Shown here piece by piece: positions 26,564 through 32,957 of a stretch of DNA of 34,301 nucleotides; positions within the stretch are counted from its first letter, which is position 1; every line of letters starts with the position of its first letter. A model generated the notes under the pieces. That model made no database searches, had not been told where the DNA came from, and saw only the letters and a list, made by a program, of their open reading frames with translations. This DNA is from a virus. The stretch spans positions 1 to 34,301 of IMG/VR virus record IMGVR_UViG_3300047374_000049, one strand, 5' to 3'. Made by a program: the position numbers and the translations under genes.

Positions 26564-27412
26564 TTACTGACCAGTTGCGCTGGCCTCGCATTGCCGTATG
26601 GCAATCCCTATTTGCATTGCAATTTTTGGCAAGATCGCATTGCCTAATCCTTTAAGTCTGTCCACCCTTCTGGGTATCCCATGAGCCACTCTACCCACTG
26701 CGGGTTCAGTGGGCCACCGACCTTCTCGCCCAAGTTCCCCTTCCCCCTGTCTGTCGTGCTGTCCTTGTGCATGAACGCGCGCGGTGTCGGCCACATCCTC
26801 GCCTGATCCGCCAAATTCGCCCCAAATTTCAAGTCGGGGTTCGTCTTGCTGATGCGTCTGCCCTGTTCGTCCAGTTGTCTCGGCCCGCCCGTCCCGTCCG
26901 ATGCTCTCGGTGTTGCCCATAAATCGCCCGATGATCCAGACCCGATCTCGTCTGTGCGGGGCATCGACACCGCAAGCCGGTACAATAAACGCCCTTGTGG
27001 CGTAGCCATCGGCTTCCAAGTCAGATAGCACTTGGTCGAGACCCATGGAGACATGACCATAAACATTTTCGAAAACGCACCAAGCGGGTCGTTTTTGTGC
27101 AACAATCTCGCGGATGTACGGCCAGATGTGGCGGTCATCTTCCGCGCCGAGGCGCTTCCCGGCTTGTGAGAATGGTTGACATGGATACCCGGCAGTAAGA
27201 ATTGTATCTCGTCCCCCGGCTGGGATTTTTTCTGGCTCATTTGCTAACACCTTTACATCTTCTTCGATTGGCACATCAGGCCAATGCTTTGCTAATATCT
27301 TGCGCGACCACGGCTCAATGTCGCAGAACATGGCTGGCGTTGACAGGCCAGCCCATTCAAACCCCAGCGCAAATCCACCGATGCCCGAACATAAATCTAT
27401 ATGACGCATCAT
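26564..27412 (-). CDS. C5 cytosine DNA methyltransferase
   Basis: A 282-residue Dcm-family enzyme. It has motif I 'DLCSGIGGFALGFEWAG' (SAM binding, residues 6-22), motif IV 'GYPCQPFS' with catalytic Cys78, motif VI 'FENV' (114-117), motif VIII 'HRRDRVWIIG' (about 153-162) and motif X 'LKGLGNAILPKIA' near 260. The target-recognition part between VIII and X is short (about 100 residues) and G/R/E/Q-rich. No partner endonuclease is present, so self-protection or regulation is likely. Its ATG overlaps the previous stop (ATGA). A second frame inside it is also open for 198 codons. Confidence 0.92.
   Translation of the reverse strand: MMRHIDLCSGIGGFALGFEWAGLSTPAMFCDIEPWSRKILAKHWPDVPIEEDVKVLANEPEKIPAGGRDTILTAGYPCQPFSQAGKRLGAEDDRHIWPYIREIVAQKRPAWCVFENVYGHVSMGLDQVLSDLEADGYATRAFIVPACGVDAPHRRDRVWIIGRFMGNTESIGRDGRAETTGRTGQTHQQDEPRLEIWGEFGGSGEDVADTARVHAQGQHDRQGEGELGREGRWPTEPAVGRVAHGIPRRVDRLKGLGNAILPKIAMQIGIAIRQCEASATGQ
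26644..27240 (-). CDS. Overprinted ORF within the methyltransferase (198 aa)
   Basis: This frame lies wholly inside the methyltransferase gene, shifted by one base, and covers its residues 58-256. It is not random-looking. It contains 'ASARKMTATSGR', 'CYLTWKPMATPQGRLLYRLA', 'LWATPRASDG' and the ending 'LNPQWVEWLMGYPEGWTDL'. From memory, these motifs recur in phage proteins annotated beside or within Dcm genes, so the second frame seems to be conserved in the wider family. The start has AAGGTG about 8 bases upstream. Whether it is translated, or joined to the methyltransferase by frameshifting, is unknown. Confidence 0.45.
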   Translation of the reverse strand: MSQKKSQPGDEIQFLLPGIHVNHSHKPGSASARKMTATSGRTSARLLHKNDPLGAFSKMFMVMSPWVSTKCYLTWKPMATPQGRLLYRLAVSMPRTDEIGSGSSGDLWATPRASDGTGGPRQLDEQGRRISKTNPDLKFGANLADQARMWPTPRAFMHKDSTTDRGKGNLGEKVGGPLNPQWVEWLMGYPEGWTDLKD

Positions 27413-27592: not shown

Positions 27593-28030
27593 TCACTCGC
27601 TAGTTTCATTGCACATAAGCTCCCTTGCAACCATGCAGAAATCGTTAAACGTCATCTCGACTGCGTACTTCCAGTCGTACCCGTCACCCATTTGGCGCTC
27701 AAACGTGGCTAGCATCGCCAGCGCCTCAATAGGCACGCGCCAGCGTTCCGGCAGTCTATCGAACTTATAGACCAGCGCCGGTATTTTGCCAGCCTTCTCC
27801 GCTGCCACGCAAATTTGATCCCAATGGCTGGGCGAGGCAAACGTGCTACCCTGCCGGTAGCGTTTGCATTCTATTACAAACGGAAACGCATCGTCTTCGC
27901 ACGTCAGGTCAGGCAAGCCAGCCTCTGCCCATTGGTCTAGCACCCTGCGAAACTCTAGCCCAAGCTCCGCATGCAGCCTGTTCTTTACGTCACGCTCAAA
28001 CGATGCGCCCTTGTTGCGAGAGTTAACCAT
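27593..28030 (-). CDS. Holliday-junction-resolvase-like PD-(D/E)XK nuclease
   Basis: A 145-residue nuclease. 'NSRNKGASFERDVKNRL' puts a conserved glutamate at residue 12, 'WAEAGLPDLTCE' an aspartate at 41, and 'FVIECKRYRQG' the E-x-K pair at 54 and 56. This is the layout of Hjc/RecU/RecB-like phage nucleases, which would resolve replication or recombination intermediates before packaging. It overlaps the RHH regulator by 8 bp and leads into the methyltransferase operon. A restriction-type function is less likely given the early replication setting. Confidence 0.8.
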   Translation of the reverse strand: MVNSRNKGASFERDVKNRLHAELGLEFRRVLDQWAEAGLPDLTCEDDAFPFVIECKRYRQGSTFASPSHWDQICVAAEKAGKIPALVYKFDRLPERWRVPIEALAMLATFERQMGDGYDWKYAVEMTFNDFCMVARELMCNETSE

Positions 28031-28217
28031 TGCGTGCCGCCGCTATCACCCGGTCTAAGTCAGACCCGTCTTTGGTCAGGCGCTTTTCTAATTCTTGCGC
28101 CAGTATTTCGTCAGCCAGTGACGCCATCGAGCGATGCGCCGACTGCTCTACCGCTTCCTTCAGCATCAAAACCGTCTTGGTTCTGAGCCGCAATAATGTT
28201 GGTTTTGTTGTTGTCAT
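28023..28217 (-). CDS. Arc-like ribbon-helix-helix regulator
   Basis: A 64-residue protein: a short strand 'PTLLRLRTKTV' (DNA-contacting residues R10, R12, K14 in alternation), helix 'LMLKEAVEQSAHRS' and helix 'MASLADEILAQELEKRL'. This is the Arc/MetJ fold, which binds operators as pairs of dimers. It is the first gene of the long leftward operon. A dyad at 28219-28233 covers its ribosome-binding site and a matching dyad lies over the divergent promoter, so autoregulation is likely. RHH antitoxins are an alternative, but the neighbour does not look like a toxin. Confidence 0.85.
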   Translation of the reverse strand: MTTTKPTLLRLRTKTVLMLKEAVEQSAHRSMASLADEILAQELEKRLTKDGSDLDRVIAAARNG

Positions 28218-28218
28218 G

Positions 28219-28233
28219 ATATCGCCCTGATAT
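28219..28233. promoter_or_regulatory. Operator-like dyad O1 (ATATC-N5-GATAT)
   Basis: A 15-bp inverted repeat, ATATC GCCCT GATAT, starts one base before the RHH start codon. On the minus strand its centre AGGGC is the likely ribosome-binding site of the RHH gene. It shares the longer block ATGATATCG-N3-TGATAT with the second dyad 43 bp away, about four helical turns. Confidence 0.65.
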
Positions 28234-28250
28234 TTTTTCGCTATCTGCCC

Positions 28251-28281
28251 TTTACATTATGATATCGAAGTGATATATAAT
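28251..28281 (+). promoter_or_regulatory. Putative rightward promoter
   Basis: TTTACA (28251-28256) is followed, after 17 bases, by TATATA (28274-28279), or after 19 bases by a perfect TATAAT (28276-28281). Transcription would begin near 28287, about 35 bp before the first plus-strand ATG. The second dyad overlaps the spacer and -10, so a protein bound there should block it. On the opposite strand CATAAT (28261-28256) could serve as a -10 for the leftward operon. Confidence 0.6.
28262..28276. promoter_or_regulatory. Operator-like dyad O2 (ATATC-N5-GATAT)
   Basis: A second inverted repeat, ATATC GAAGT GATAT, has the same arms and spacing as O1 and lies in the spacer and -10 of the rightward promoter. 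It is the best candidate for a site bound by the RHH protein to control the plus-strand early genes. Confidence 0.65.
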
Positions 28282-28282
28282 A

Positions 28283-28315
28283 GTTGACGGCACGTTGACC
28301 GTTAGTTGAAAGGGA
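28283..28315 (+). repeat. Three GTTGA repeats at 11-bp spacing
   Basis: GTTGACGGCAC, GTTGACCGTTA and GTTGAAAGGGA follow each other with exactly 11-bp period (starts 28283, 28294, 28305), just after the rightward -10 and up to the ribosome-binding site. Copies one helical turn apart suggest a protein-binding site on one DNA face, perhaps for the LexA-like winged helix at the end of this operon. Confidence 0.55.
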
Positions 28316-28320
28316 ATAAA

Positions 28321-28566
28321 ATGACAGCATCAGCAAAAACATTTGATTGGATTACAGACAAGATTGCCAAGGGCATGACAGTCGCAATCACAACTGGCTT
28401 AAAATCAATTCACGTATCACCAAAGACGTTTGCTGCGTTTGACAAGGCTGGTCAGCCGATGTTCAAGATCAACAGCGCAAACGAATTGATGATGGCAGAG
28501 GGCAAATCATACGTCTGCATCGCAACACCTGACATGGTGTTGGTCAAAGTTTCAGCACACGCATAA
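28321..28566 (+). CDS. Unknown early protein, 81 aa
   Basis: The first rightward gene. It encodes MTASAKTFDWITDKIAKG, then 'MTVAITTGLKSIHVSPKTFAAF' (in part), 'SYVCIATPDMVLVKV'. Mixed helix and strand with no membrane segment. The ATG at 28321 has AAAGGGA in front; a TTG five codons earlier is less likely. Small proteins of similar layout occur in early regions of marine phages, function unknown. A host-takeover role is only a guess from position. Confidence 0.72.
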   Translation: MTASAKTFDWITDKIAKGMTVAITTGLKSIHVSPKTFAAFDKAGQPMFKINSANELMMAEGKSYVCIATPDMVLVKVSAHA

Positions 28567-28578
28567 AGGGGCAGCATA

Positions 28579-29202
28579 ATGAAGTTCATCGTCTACTACC
28601 GCGTATCTACTCAGCGTCAAGGCCAGTCCGGCCTTGGCCTTGAGGCACAGCAGCACGCATGTGCGCATTACGATATTGTCGCTGAATACACAGAAGTAGA
28701 AAGCGGCAAGAAATCTAACCGCCCGGAGCTAGCCAAGGCATTGGCGCACGCCAAGAAGATAGGCGCGACACTGCTTATCGCAAAGCTCGACCGGCTGGCG
28801 CGTAACGTCCACTTTATCACAGGCTTGCTCGAAGCTGGCGTGCCTATTACATGCGCCGACATGCCAGAGGCAGACCGCACATTCCTACAGATGGCCGCTG
28901 TCTTTGCAGAATGGGAAGGTCGCCGCATCAGCGAACGCACCAAGGCAGCGCTAGCCGCAGCCAAGCGCCGTGGCGTAAAGCTCGGCTCACCTGACCCTGC
29001 AAAGGGTGGTTCAGTTACCGGCAAGCAACGCGCCAGCGCCACCGCACAGGTAGCGCCGCAAGCTATGCCTATTATCAACGCATTGCGCAAGGCTGGTCAG
29101 AGCCTACGCGCCATCGCATCCGCGCTCAATGACGCGCAGATACCGACCGCAATGGGCGGTCAGTGGCACGCATCTAGCGTGCGTAATCTCATCAACGCAT
29201 AA
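28579..29202 (+). CDS. Small serine recombinase (resolvase/invertase family)
   Basis: A 207-residue recombinase. The catalytic domain has 'VYYRVSTQRQG' with nucleophile Ser10 and Arg8, and 'LLIAKLDRLARN' with D71, R72 and R75; a long E helix follows ('ERTKAALAAAKRRGVKLG'). The C-terminal helix-turn-helix reads 'GQSLRAIASALNDAQIPTA' and 'WHASSVRNLI'. It lacks the large C-terminal domain of serine integrases, so it is more like Hin/Gin or Tn3-type enzymes that invert or resolve DNA. No flanking crossover sites were recognised. It starts 12 bp after the 81-aa gene. Confidence 0.92.
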   Translation: MKFIVYYRVSTQRQGQSGLGLEAQQHACAHYDIVAEYTEVESGKKSNRPELAKALAHAKKIGATLLIAKLDRLARNVHFITGLLEAGVPITCADMPEADRTFLQMAAVFAEWEGRRISERTKAALAAAKRRGVKLGSPDPAKGGSVTGKQRASATAQVAPQAMPIINALRKAGQSLRAIASALNDAQIPTAMGGQWHASSVRNLINA

Positions 29203-29336: not shown

Positions 29337-30026
29337 ATGGAAATCATCACACGCAAAGAGGCACAAGAAAAAGGGCTGCCTCGATACTTCACTGGCAAGC
29401 CGTGCAAGCATGGGCATGTTTGTGAACGGTTTGTTGCGCAGAAAACGTGCGTTGAATGCAAGCAAAAATTTGACAAAGAGTATTACGAGAAAAACAAAGA
29501 ACGCTTGTTAAAAAAAGTGAAGAATTACGCGGAAGTAAACAAAGATAAAATTACGCAGTATAATTTAGAATACTATGCAAGCAACAAAGAACACATGAAG
29601 AAAAACTCTTCACAGAGGTACAAAGAGAAACGTGAAGAAATACGGGAAAAAACGAAAGAATACTATCAAAGAAACAGTGAAAAAATACGCGCTAGGGTGC
29701 GTGAATACAGTCTAAAAAACAAAGAAAAGGTGCGTGCGGCAAGAAAAGCTTACAGATTAAAAAACGTTGCCGTGTTGACGGTTATAAAAACAAATAGAAA
29801 AAGACACGTCAAAAAAGCAACGCCATTTTGGGCGGATATGCAACGTATAAAGGTGAAGCACAAGGAGCGTATCGCCATGACAAACATGACAGGTCTTGAA
29901 CATCACGTTGATCACATTGTGCCGTTGCAGGGTGCAAACGTGTGTGGCTTAAATATACCAGCAAACATGCGGGTTATTTTAGCAAGGGATAATATAAGCA
30001 AAAGAAACAAATGGGAGACAGTATAA
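29337..30026 (+). CDS. HNH endonuclease with N-terminal zinc ribbon
   Basis: A 229-residue endonuclease. The N-terminus has a zinc site ('GKPCKHGHVCERF' and 'KTCVECKQKF'). The middle is a long, lysine-rich helical repeat built on 'YYEKNKE / YYASNKE / YYQRNSE / YSLKNKE'. The C-terminus carries the HNH core 'EHHVDHIVPLQGANVCGLNI' with 'NMRVI' and a final 'NISKRNKW'. Such enzymes are often mobile in phages. The gene is distinctly AT- and lysine-rich against its neighbours, a sign of acquisition, yet its stop overlaps the next start (TAATG). Confidence 0.88.
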   Translation: MEIITRKEAQEKGLPRYFTGKPCKHGHVCERFVAQKTCVECKQKFDKEYYEKNKERLLKKVKNYAEVNKDKITQYNLEYYASNKEHMKKNSSQRYKEKREEIREKTKEYYQRNSEKIRARVREYSLKNKEKVRAARKAYRLKNVAVLTVIKTNRKRHVKKATPFWADMQRIKVKHKERIAMTNMTGLEHHVDHIVPLQGANVCGLNIPANMRVILARDNISKRNKWETV

Positions 30027-30994
30027 TGGTCGGAAAACTTACACCTGATAACATGCTATCAGCCTCGCGCATCGCGCAGCTTATGGGGCAATCACCATAT
30101 GCCACGCAAAACGAATTGCTGTCAGACATGCTTATGGTAGACGAAGGCGTGACGCCGCGCCCTATCGAACAGAATGAACTCATGGCATGGGGCGACATCC
30201 ATGAGGGTGCAATCATCGCAGAAGCATCACGCCGCCTTGGCCTTGTCGATGTCGAAGACGACTTCGCGCAAGCGTTCTTCCATGACAAGCTTCGCCTTGC
30301 AGCATCGCTGGACGGCATGGCCACAGGCACGCGTCTCATAAAAGAAGACCACGCGCAGGGCATCATCATCCCCGGCACGGCAAACGCAATCCAGTTAACC
30401 GACAAAAAATTGTTGCTGGAATGCAAGACAACACAGGCAGCGCCAGAAGATGTGCCGCCACCACATCGCGGCGTGCTACAGCTACAGGCGCAGATGATGT
30501 GCGCTGGTGCAAGCTTGGGCGCGGTGTGTGTACTCTATCGCGGGTCTACCTTGCGCATGTTCCTGTACCACGCTGACGCTGGCGTACAGGCACGCATTGC
30601 ACAGGCTGTCGAAGAGTTTGAGCAACGCCGCAGAGACATAGACTGGTATCCGCTGATGTCACCAGCCGATGGCAACGTGGCCTACAGCCGGGTCGATGAT
30701 GTGGCACAGCCGCTGGACGTATCAGACGGCGAAGTTCAGGACGCTATCGAGGCTTTGCTTGAGGCGAAGCGTGCAAAAAAAGAGTGCGACCAGATTATCG
30801 CTGACGCGGAAACGGTCATCAAGGATTATATGGGCAACCATGAAGAAGCAAACACCGTTGTGGATGGCAAAAGGGTTATCGTTAAGTGGGGCATGCGCAA
30901 CATGAAAGCTACGCAAGAGAAGGTTGTGCCGGCAAAGCCAGCCATGCGCGTGCGTCAGAATGCTTTGACCGTGAAGGAGCTTGGCGATGTATAG
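30026..30994 (+). CDS. YqaJ / lambda-exonuclease-like recombination nuclease
   Basis: A 322-residue exonuclease. 'LSASRIAQLMGQSPYATQNEL' and 'WGDIHEGAIIAEA' open the family fold; 'LAASLDGMA' supplies the aspartate (D96) and 'LLLECKTT' the E-x-K pair (E132, K134); 'GVLQLQAQMMCAG' follows. This matches YqaJ-type 5'-3' exonucleases that start single-strand annealing. No Bet/Erf/RecT partner is apparent; the SSB-like protein or a host annealase may serve. The C-terminal 100 residues form a coiled coil and a basic tail. GGGAGA supports the ATG at 30026 rather than one five codons earlier. Confidence 0.88.
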   Translation: MVGKLTPDNMLSASRIAQLMGQSPYATQNELLSDMLMVDEGVTPRPIEQNELMAWGDIHEGAIIAEASRRLGLVDVEDDFAQAFFHDKLRLAASLDGMATGTRLIKEDHAQGIIIPGTANAIQLTDKKLLLECKTTQAAPEDVPPPHRGVLQLQAQMMCAGASLGAVCVLYRGSTLRMFLYHADAGVQARIAQAVEEFEQRRRDIDWYPLMSPADGNVAYSRVDDVAQPLDVSDGEVQDAIEALLEAKRAKKECDQIIADAETVIKDYMGNHEEANTVVDGKRVIVKWGMRNMKATQEKVVPAKPAMRVRQNALTVKELGDV

Positions 30995-31205
30995 GATTAC
31001 ACCAGCCCAGCATCGCGTTCTGAGCGCCATACAGACGCTATCTGAGGCGCAGGGGTACGTTCCTAGCTACACACAGCTAGCGGCTACCCTGAACGTCTCC
31101 AAGCAAGCCATAGGAAAGCATGTGGAAATCATGTGCGACCGTGGCATATTGCGAAAAACCTACGGCCAGCGCCACACGCTGGAGATAGTGAAGGGGGCGC
31201 AGTAG
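30987..31205 (+). CDS. LexA-type winged-helix DNA-binding protein
   Basis: A 72-residue protein that is only a DNA-binding domain: 'TPAQHRVLSAIQTLSEAQGY' (first helix), 'PSYTQLAATLNVSKQAIGKHV' (turn and recognition helix), 'CDRGILRKTYGQRHTLEIV' (wing). It resembles the N-terminal domain of LexA but has no peptidase part, so it cannot self-cleave. It is the last gene of the rightward operon, overlaps the exonuclease end by 8 bp and may regulate early transcription. Confidence 0.82.
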   Translation: MYRITPAQHRVLSAIQTLSEAQGYVPSYTQLAATLNVSKQAIGKHVEIMCDRGILRKTYGQRHTLEIVKGAQ

Positions 31206-31222
31206 CCCCCTTACTTTTTATT
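31191..31222 (+). terminator. Rho-independent terminator of rightward operon
   Basis: AAGGGGGC (31191-31198) pairs with GCCCCCTT (31205-31212) around six bases, followed by ACTTTTTATT. The stop codon of the winged-helix gene (31203-31205) lies in the loop and stem. The plus and minus genes converge here. On the minus strand no T run follows, so it mainly stops rightward transcription. Confidence 0.9.
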
Positions 31223-32367: not shown

Positions 32368-32807
32368 TATAGCCCTTTCAGATACAACACCCACCACATA
32401 AGCATAGCAAGTCCTACAAACCCTGCTATGATTAGAACAACTATTATAATGATTTCTATGATTTGTTTGTTGCGCTTACGCCGGGCAGCTAGTGCCGCCT
32501 GTCTGTTCTTACGCGCTACCGCTTGATAGTTTAGCCAGTCCGTCCACAAGTTGGGCCTCCCGTGCCAGATCATCAACTGCTTTAGCTCTTCTTCTTGCTG
32601 CTTGAGCTTTTCCAGATGCATGAATTCTTCTAGGTCGCCGGATGCAAATGGACTGCGCTTTTTCTTTTCTGCTTTGCGGCGCAAGTCCTCAGTCGCGTTG
32701 ACGTATGATGCGATCTTGTCCGCGCAGTCTGACAATTCTTTGCCGTTCTGCACAAATTGCTTGACCACCTGAAAAGCGGCGTTGGCGGCAGCAAGCTCGG
32801 CAAGCAC
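32367..32807 (-). CDS. Coiled-coil membrane protein
   Basis: A 146-residue protein. It has a helical N-terminus 'ELAAANAAFQVVKQFVQNGKEL', a charged coil ('EEFMHLEKLKQQEEELKQLM'), 'GRPNLWTDWLNYQAVARKNR', and one C-terminal membrane span of isoleucine/valine-rich residues ('IIIIVVLIIAGFVGLAML'). The same order is familiar from proteins of unknown function in marine phages. A lysis-accessory or spanin-like job is inferred from the neighbours only. The start is GTG with GGAAGGA eight bases ahead. Confidence 0.75.
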   Translation of the reverse strand: MLAELAAANAAFQVVKQFVQNGKELSDCADKIASYVNATEDLRRKAEKKKRSPFASGDLEEFMHLEKLKQQEEELKQLMIWHGRPNLWTDWLNYQAVARKNRQAALAARRKRNKQIIEIIIIVVLIIAGFVGLAMLMWWVLYLKGL

Positions 32808-32810
32808 TAG

Positions 32811-32957
32811 CTAGTCCTTCCGTGATTTCCATAGGTTCCGCGACAGCATGGCTATTGTCAGTATAATCGCCACAAGAGACAGCCACTCATTAAGAACATT
32901 GATCCACCACGGAGCAGTCAGGCCACCAGCATATAAAGGGATATCGTTCTGGTTCAC
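32811..32957 (-). CDS. Small membrane protein, 48 aa
   Basis: This ORF reads (GTG) VNQNDIPLYAGGL, 'APWWINVLNEWLSLVAIILT' and 'IAMLSRNLWKSRKD'. It is one membrane span with a basic cytoplasmic end. The GTG overlaps the TGA of the upstream virion gene (GTGA), and the stop is 4 bp before the next GTG. A pinholin or antiholin-type role is possible but unproven. Confidence 0.68.
   Translation of the reverse strand: MNQNDIPLYAGGLTAPWWINVLNEWLSLVAIILTIAMLSRNLWKSRKD

Follow-up and report, generated by a model that had tools for sequence, protein, structure and literature searches.

A conserved operator pair predicted to bind an RHH repressor, with a probable second regulator, at the divergent junction of a phage contig

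During the lytic growth of phage P22 the RHH protein Arc acts as repressor of its own promoter; an arc mutant of a P22-like phage makes too much of the early and too little of the late proteins (PMC12111858). The half-sites in the complexes of AmrZ, Arc and CopG are separated by a linker of 5 bp (PMC3325190). The locus described here shares with P22 Arc and Pant a small phage protein of the RHH class, here a putative one, autoregulation, here a predicted one, and the 5-bp linker; Arc limits early lytic expression (PMC12111858; PMC3325190). It differs from Arc/Pant in that the RHH gene heads a leftward unit opposite a recombination operon, and in that two separate operators with half-site arrays are present. 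The initial annotation drew the parallel to Arc in P22. As a functional likeness the parallel stands, yet the scan of neighbouring genes did not reveal ant, sar or mnt. P22 Arc is the closest functional parallel, and we do not claim membership in a P22 immI module.

Other described systems share single traits with this locus. AmrZ from Pseudomonas aeruginosa is an RHH protein which represses its own promoter via two sites with an A/T-rich 5-bp linker (PMC3325190), yet it is a chromosomal global regulator of 108 aa which is an activator as well. A CopG/ParD-type relationship is suggested by an operator-linked family in related phages which matches Pfam RHH_1, and by a weak Foldseek match to ParD; unlike in those systems, there is neither a toxin partner nor a plasmid copy-control context. 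Switches of the lambda type (cI/cro, cII) likewise have divergent arms, regulators on both arms and a direct-repeat array beside a promoter, but the protein families here are others, and neither a tyrosine integrase nor a sign of lysogeny is seen. In Aca-type anti-defence regulation a conserved promoter and a repressor precede fast-changing small early genes (PMC11065993); here the predicted regulator is RHH, not HTH, and the early genes are only putatively anti-defence. The closest isolate by terminase (65.7% identity) is Methylophilales phage MEP301, which has a similar divergent layout, a resolvase, YqaJ, an RHH protein (gp52) and a similar operator. It differs because its RHH gene, from another family, is located inside the leftward operon, and neither a D array nor a close relative of the winged HTH protein, both described below, was found. 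A published description of such a switch was not found in searches of an open-access library.

The window analysed is an entire IMG/VR record of 34,301 bases. Its intergenic region 28218-28320 (103 bp) is the sole divergent junction of recognised genes in the contig because the genes between 28321 and 31205 run rightward and recognised genes elsewhere run leftward. The GC skew switches sign at this junction. The leftward unit starts with a gene for a predicted RHH (Arc/CopG-like) repressor of 64 aa (28023-28217, minus strand) which overlaps the following gene (27593-28030) by 8 nt. On the plus strand, the first gene codes for an 81 aa protein (28321-28566) and occupies a hypervariable slot. 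It is followed by a small serine recombinase of the resolvase/invertase type with 207 aa (28579-29202; PF00239, E 1.2e-27; PHROG DNA invertase), an HNH/endonuclease VII-like protein (29337-30026; phrog_1035, E 9.6e-16), a YqaJ/RecE-like exonuclease (30011-30994; PF09588, E 1.6e-12; phrog_434, E 2e-31) and, as the last gene, a LexA-DBD-like winged HTH protein (wHTH) of 74 aa (30981-31205; PF01726, E 1.3e-6). A strong intrinsic terminator at 31191-31212 on the same strand, an 8-pair stem followed by a T-rich tail, ends the operon. Inversion of tail-fibre genes by the recombinase was considered and set aside: no convincing inverted-repeat pair was seen, the best candidates being imperfect long-distance matches.

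A sigma-70-like rightward promoter was read from the sequence and its relatives at 28251-28279 (plus strand), with TTTACA at 28251-28256, a spacer of 17 bp and TATATA at 28274-28279; TATAAT at 28276-28281 is an alternative -10 box. The -35 box of relatives is mostly TTGTAA, or TTGACA. A consensus promoter scan detected neither of the divergent promoters. Since the scan accepts only -10 boxes that end in T, the rightward promoter with its TATATA went unreported; the best match of the scan, TTGACC-16-TAAAAT, was discarded on account of its overlap with the start codon.

Within the junction the initial annotation had noted two identical-arm dyads 43 bp apart, one over the ribosome-binding site of the RHH gene and the other over the rightward promoter. 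Both are exact copies of ATATC-N5-GATAT, ATATCGCCCTGATAT at 28219-28233 (O2) and ATATCGAAGTGATAT at 28262-28276 (O1), the 34.3-kb contig contains no further exact match, and their positions hold. Shuffles exclude a chance origin of the pair. When the intergenic region was shuffled with dinucleotides preserved, two dyads appeared in 0 of 20,000 and a single dyad in 28 of 20,000 sequences; whole-window shuffles yielded two dyads in 0 of 400, and any pair of identical-arm 5-bp dyads was seen in 0 of 3,000 shuffles.

Each dyad can be read equally well as hexamers with a period of 11 bp. Read this way, O2 extends from 28218 to 28245 and contains the half-sites GATATC (28218), GATATT (28229) and GCTATC (28240). 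The first two make up the dyad at 28219-28233, the third continues in the same 11-bp register. O2 spans -2 to -16 of the RHH start codon (ATG, 28215-28217, minus strand), including a Shine-Dalgarno-like AGGG. The register of three half-sites recurs in the related lineages L060 and L068, and weakly in L069. O1 (28261-28277) consists of GATATC (28261) and GATATA (28272) and is located in the spacer of the rightward promoter. At both sites one finds repeated short half-sites, with the 5-bp linker known from Arc, CopG and AmrZ. The anatomy given in the initial annotation was correct as far as it went; it had overlooked the third half-site of O2, the D array and the LexA-DBD-like wHTH protein.

The class of the 64-aa protein had to be approached indirectly. 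It has no match in Pfam, and direct family searches were nearly silent. Weak matches to the PHROG Arc-like repressor were obtained for 4 of 15 family members (best E 0.018). A profile of the RHH family matched an operator-linked family, A4 (probability 90.6, E 1.3e-6), and A4-type members in turn match Pfam RHH_1, one of them above the cut-off. The AF2 monomer has helices at residues 13-25 and 31-63 and no strand (pLDDT 73, pTM 0.34); a Foldseek search with this model returned weak matches at E ≥1, many of them RHH proteins (ParD, NikR and others). Individually these lines of similarity are weak and transitive, mutually they agree, and together they suggest an RHH protein. Accordingly, of the earlier designation as Arc-like, an RHH-type family can be retained by comparison, while similarity to Arc-like PHROGs is marginal. 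Between 37 and 45 relatives of this protein were found in viral contigs, and KPTLLRLR and HRSMASLADEIL are common to them with few exceptions. A direct tblastn search in named phages and plasmids gave no match; neither did a scan of genome_contigs with one peptide pattern.

The operator is conserved together with this family. In 7 of 12 lineages found via the protein, ATATC-N5-GATAT is exactly preserved between the -35 and -10 boxes with a varying linker, and one further lineage has O1 with a single mismatch. The dyad is absent from the remaining 4 of 12, i.e., the groups L062, L066, L071 and L079. Among the 19 closest relatives the arms of O2 are exact throughout; at O1 every one of these relatives shows a single degenerate arm, and both arms are exact in the window. 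In an O1 alignment in which some rows were chosen by the operator pattern itself, the information content of the 4-bp linker core is 0.12-0.45 versus 1.1-2.0 for the half-sites.

The reverse approach started from the operator. A scan of 2.9 million viral contigs with TTGNNANNGATATCNNNNTGATATATA alone identified 27 contigs, the reversed control pattern a single one. In 24 of the operator-bearing contigs an RHH ORF is located within 1 kb of the operator. For L091 the full record (G004) shows the RHH gene at a distance of 459 bases, which brings the count to 25 of 25 checkable contigs; L089 and L092 were left out because the contig or stretch ends too close. The 27 hits represent few lineages, and the 25 are not 25 independent events. 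With an HMM restricted to the query family in order to avoid circularity, the RHH gene was top-ranked in 6 of 6 operator contigs tested, at modest scores. As background, 276 kb of other loci contained 3 RHH ORFs.

The operator scan recovered a relative overlooked by the protein scan, L088, and beyond that two other RHH families. In L096 a different RHH gene is divergent from the operator, and its neighbours are of the same kind, with a C5 methyltransferase on one side and a recombinase on the other. In the KPFLVRLT group the RHH gene is located downstream of the operator within the operon and is not divergent. Another phage group, L081-L099 (records G001-G007), possesses the nearly perfect promoter TTGACATA-GATATC-N5-GATATATATT, and its RHH gene follows downstream after a few other genes. 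In MEP301 (L105, MW452941.1), gp52, annotated as hypothetical (32729-32890, minus strand), is an RHH protein, and a site GATATC-N5-TATATA is present at 34702 ahead of gp01. Pelagibacter phage Hodr has neither an RHH gene nor the operator beside a divergent junction. A C5 cytosine methyltransferase gene is present in the window as well (26564-27412), near the left side of the RHH gene; in L096 a C5 methyltransferase gene directly adjoins the RHH gene. Phage C72C1, which shares the methyltransferase region, has an unrelated HTH protein as divergent repressor and was left out of the alignment.

The dyads are real and conserved and most likely form an RHH operator pair, and a second regulator is probable. 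We consider it quite probable that the RHH protein acts at O1 and O2, regulating itself and controlling the rightward operon. Autoregulation and control of the recombinase/HNH/exonuclease operon had been predicted before; the comparative evidence, i.e., site positions, conservation and RHH linkage, makes this the best reading because the sites lie over the protein's own ribosome-binding site and over the rightward promoter. A promoter of the host sigma-70 type would drive the rightward operon with its variable small gene, serine recombinase, HNH nuclease, YqaJ exonuclease and wHTH. Dimers of the 64-aa protein would bind to half-sites of 6 bp that recur with a period of 11 bp. On O1 they would cover the promoter spacer and the -10 box and shut off the rightward operon; on O2 they would cover the ribosome-binding site and early leader of the RHH gene and limit its synthesis. 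A leftward promoter was not recognisable in the sequence, and therefore the step at which O2 mediates autoregulation could be initiation, elongation or translation. Less certainly, the wHTH encoded at the end of the operon might read the D array at the start of rightward transcription and so provide a second feedback arm.

The D array (28283-28310, plus strand) consists of GTTGAC (28283), GTTGAC (28294) and GTTGAA (28305) with an exact period of 11 bp. Relative to the predicted rightward transcript it runs from about -4 to +23, and in the window contig it is in register with O1. The leaders of eight RHH lineages contain three hexamers spaced by exactly 11 bp, and in each lineage 11 comes out as the best lag (shuffle p 0 to 0.033). 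The sequence of D changes with lineage: TTGAY in the window, L024, L031 and L069; TTAAY/TTGAC in L088; GRTAAY in L068; GATAAT-like in L067 and GGACA-like in L060. In L071-L078, which form part of this RHH clade, the leader has an inverted repeat, GCTGG-N6-CCAGC, in place of a direct-repeat array.

The protein at 30981-31205 has the features of a LexA DNA-binding domain, and its profile matches LexA structures (best E 3.2e-12). The C-terminal autoproteolysis/dimerisation domain of LexA is absent; the 74-aa protein stops after the DNA-binding domain. The wHTH gene closes the rightward operon in every D lineage whose contig reaches that far. A scan starting from the wHTH yielded no new operator-bearing lineage; the near-match to the operator in L141 was discarded, as no RHH gene lies beside it.

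These observations permit an extension to which we assign slightly less than an even chance: a bipolar switch with two regulators, in which the RHH protein reads O1/O2 and the LexA-DBD-like wHTH reads D. The wHTH would either repress its own operon, with its sites at the start of transcription, or activate a leftward promoter whose -35 region would be under D, similar to the cII direct repeats of lambda/P22. In favour of such a switch, the architecture of D is conserved while its sequence changes, and all D lineages with sufficient contig carry the wHTH; in the operator groups devoid of D (L096, the KPFLVRLT group and MEP301) no close wHTH relative was detected. Further, wHTH proteins with QA or QS recognition helices go with TTGAY, those with other helices with TTAAY, GRTAAY or GATAAT. 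Both the D motif and the recognition helix of the wHTH vary, whereas the RHH strand KPTLLRLR and O1 remain constant; this makes the wHTH a better candidate for D than the RHH protein. On the other hand, seven lineages are too few for a test of covariation, L088, with a P in the helix, retains one GTTGAC, and L062, L066 and L071 have a diverged wHTH yet no D array.

It is unlikely that the dyads are sites of a host regulator or of another phage protein with an indirect linkage to the RHH gene. The sites do coincide with part of a sigma-70 promoter, a place of action of host factors, and HTH_36-type proteins occur in 13 of 13 records tested. However, HTH_36 proteins are also found in 14 of 14 control genomes, usually kilobases away, whereas the RHH gene remains within 1 kb of the operator in all 25 checkable contigs even when its position shifts from divergent to downstream. 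The half-site spacing, too, suits RHH proteins. Still less probable, indeed very unlikely, is an RNA hairpin at O2 which hides or presents the RHH ribosome-binding site in place of a DNA operator. The AGGG is in fact positioned in the loop of an ATATC/GATAT stem, but this stem is predicted at -1.3 kcal/mol, no better than shuffles (z -0.11), and O1 possesses the same half-sites though it is upstream of the rightward transcript. That an AT-rich promoter sequence merely resembles a dyad and serves no regulation is highly improbable, for although GATATA and the -10 box overlap, the GATATC of the spacer does not belong to any promoter element and is nevertheless among the most conserved parts, and the reversed control (1 contig versus 27) and the shuffles argue against it.

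Regarding lifestyle, the characterisation as a phage without recognisable integrase is borne out, as no tyrosine integrase was found in nine contigs. A small resolvase is present in most of the related contigs. With a temperate immunity region one would expect an integrase and integration; here there is only the 207-aa recombinase of the resolvase type, and for the corresponding gene of MEP301 the authors themselves doubted a functional role as recombinase (PMC8024684). Because a tyrosine integrase is missing and the resolvase is doubtful, a role of the predicted RHH switch in lytic timing appears more likely than one in lysogeny.

In a set of 45 loci the slot behind the rightward promoter is filled by 19 unrelated families; where it is empty, the recombinase gene is the first of the operon. 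Several of these families recur behind more than one RHH lineage (slot in L044-L078 and L088). The tested representatives have no Pfam match, one has a PHROG match, and PADLOC found nothing for the slot gene. Anti-defence loci with a conserved promoter in front show a comparable arrangement (PMC11065993). If the RHH operator reading is right, the slot would mark a site at which phages trade new early genes while the promoter stays constant, and the roles of these tiny proteins would become directly testable.

A broader proposal, on balance rather doubtful, is that of a widespread phage switch, in which two self-encoded regulators on opposite arms, an RHH protein whose operator hardly varies and a LexA-DBD-like wHTH with a helix-matched array of 3 x 11 bp, would control a hypervariable and possibly anti-defence early-gene slot. 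If this held, the operator could be used as bait for the early genes of the slot. The RHH operator reading, if right, would provide a transcription logic for small uncultivated, presumably lytic aquatic phages in which gene control is barely known, and a sequence tag which locates RHH regulators in unrelated phages. With the isolate MEP301 a cultured system is at hand.

Outside this region, the two ends of the contig (3-203 and 33458-34300) encode near-identical N-termini of tail genes (SGSDLV versus SGSNLV), which are explained either by a duplication of tail genes or, at a circular junction, by an artefact of assembly.
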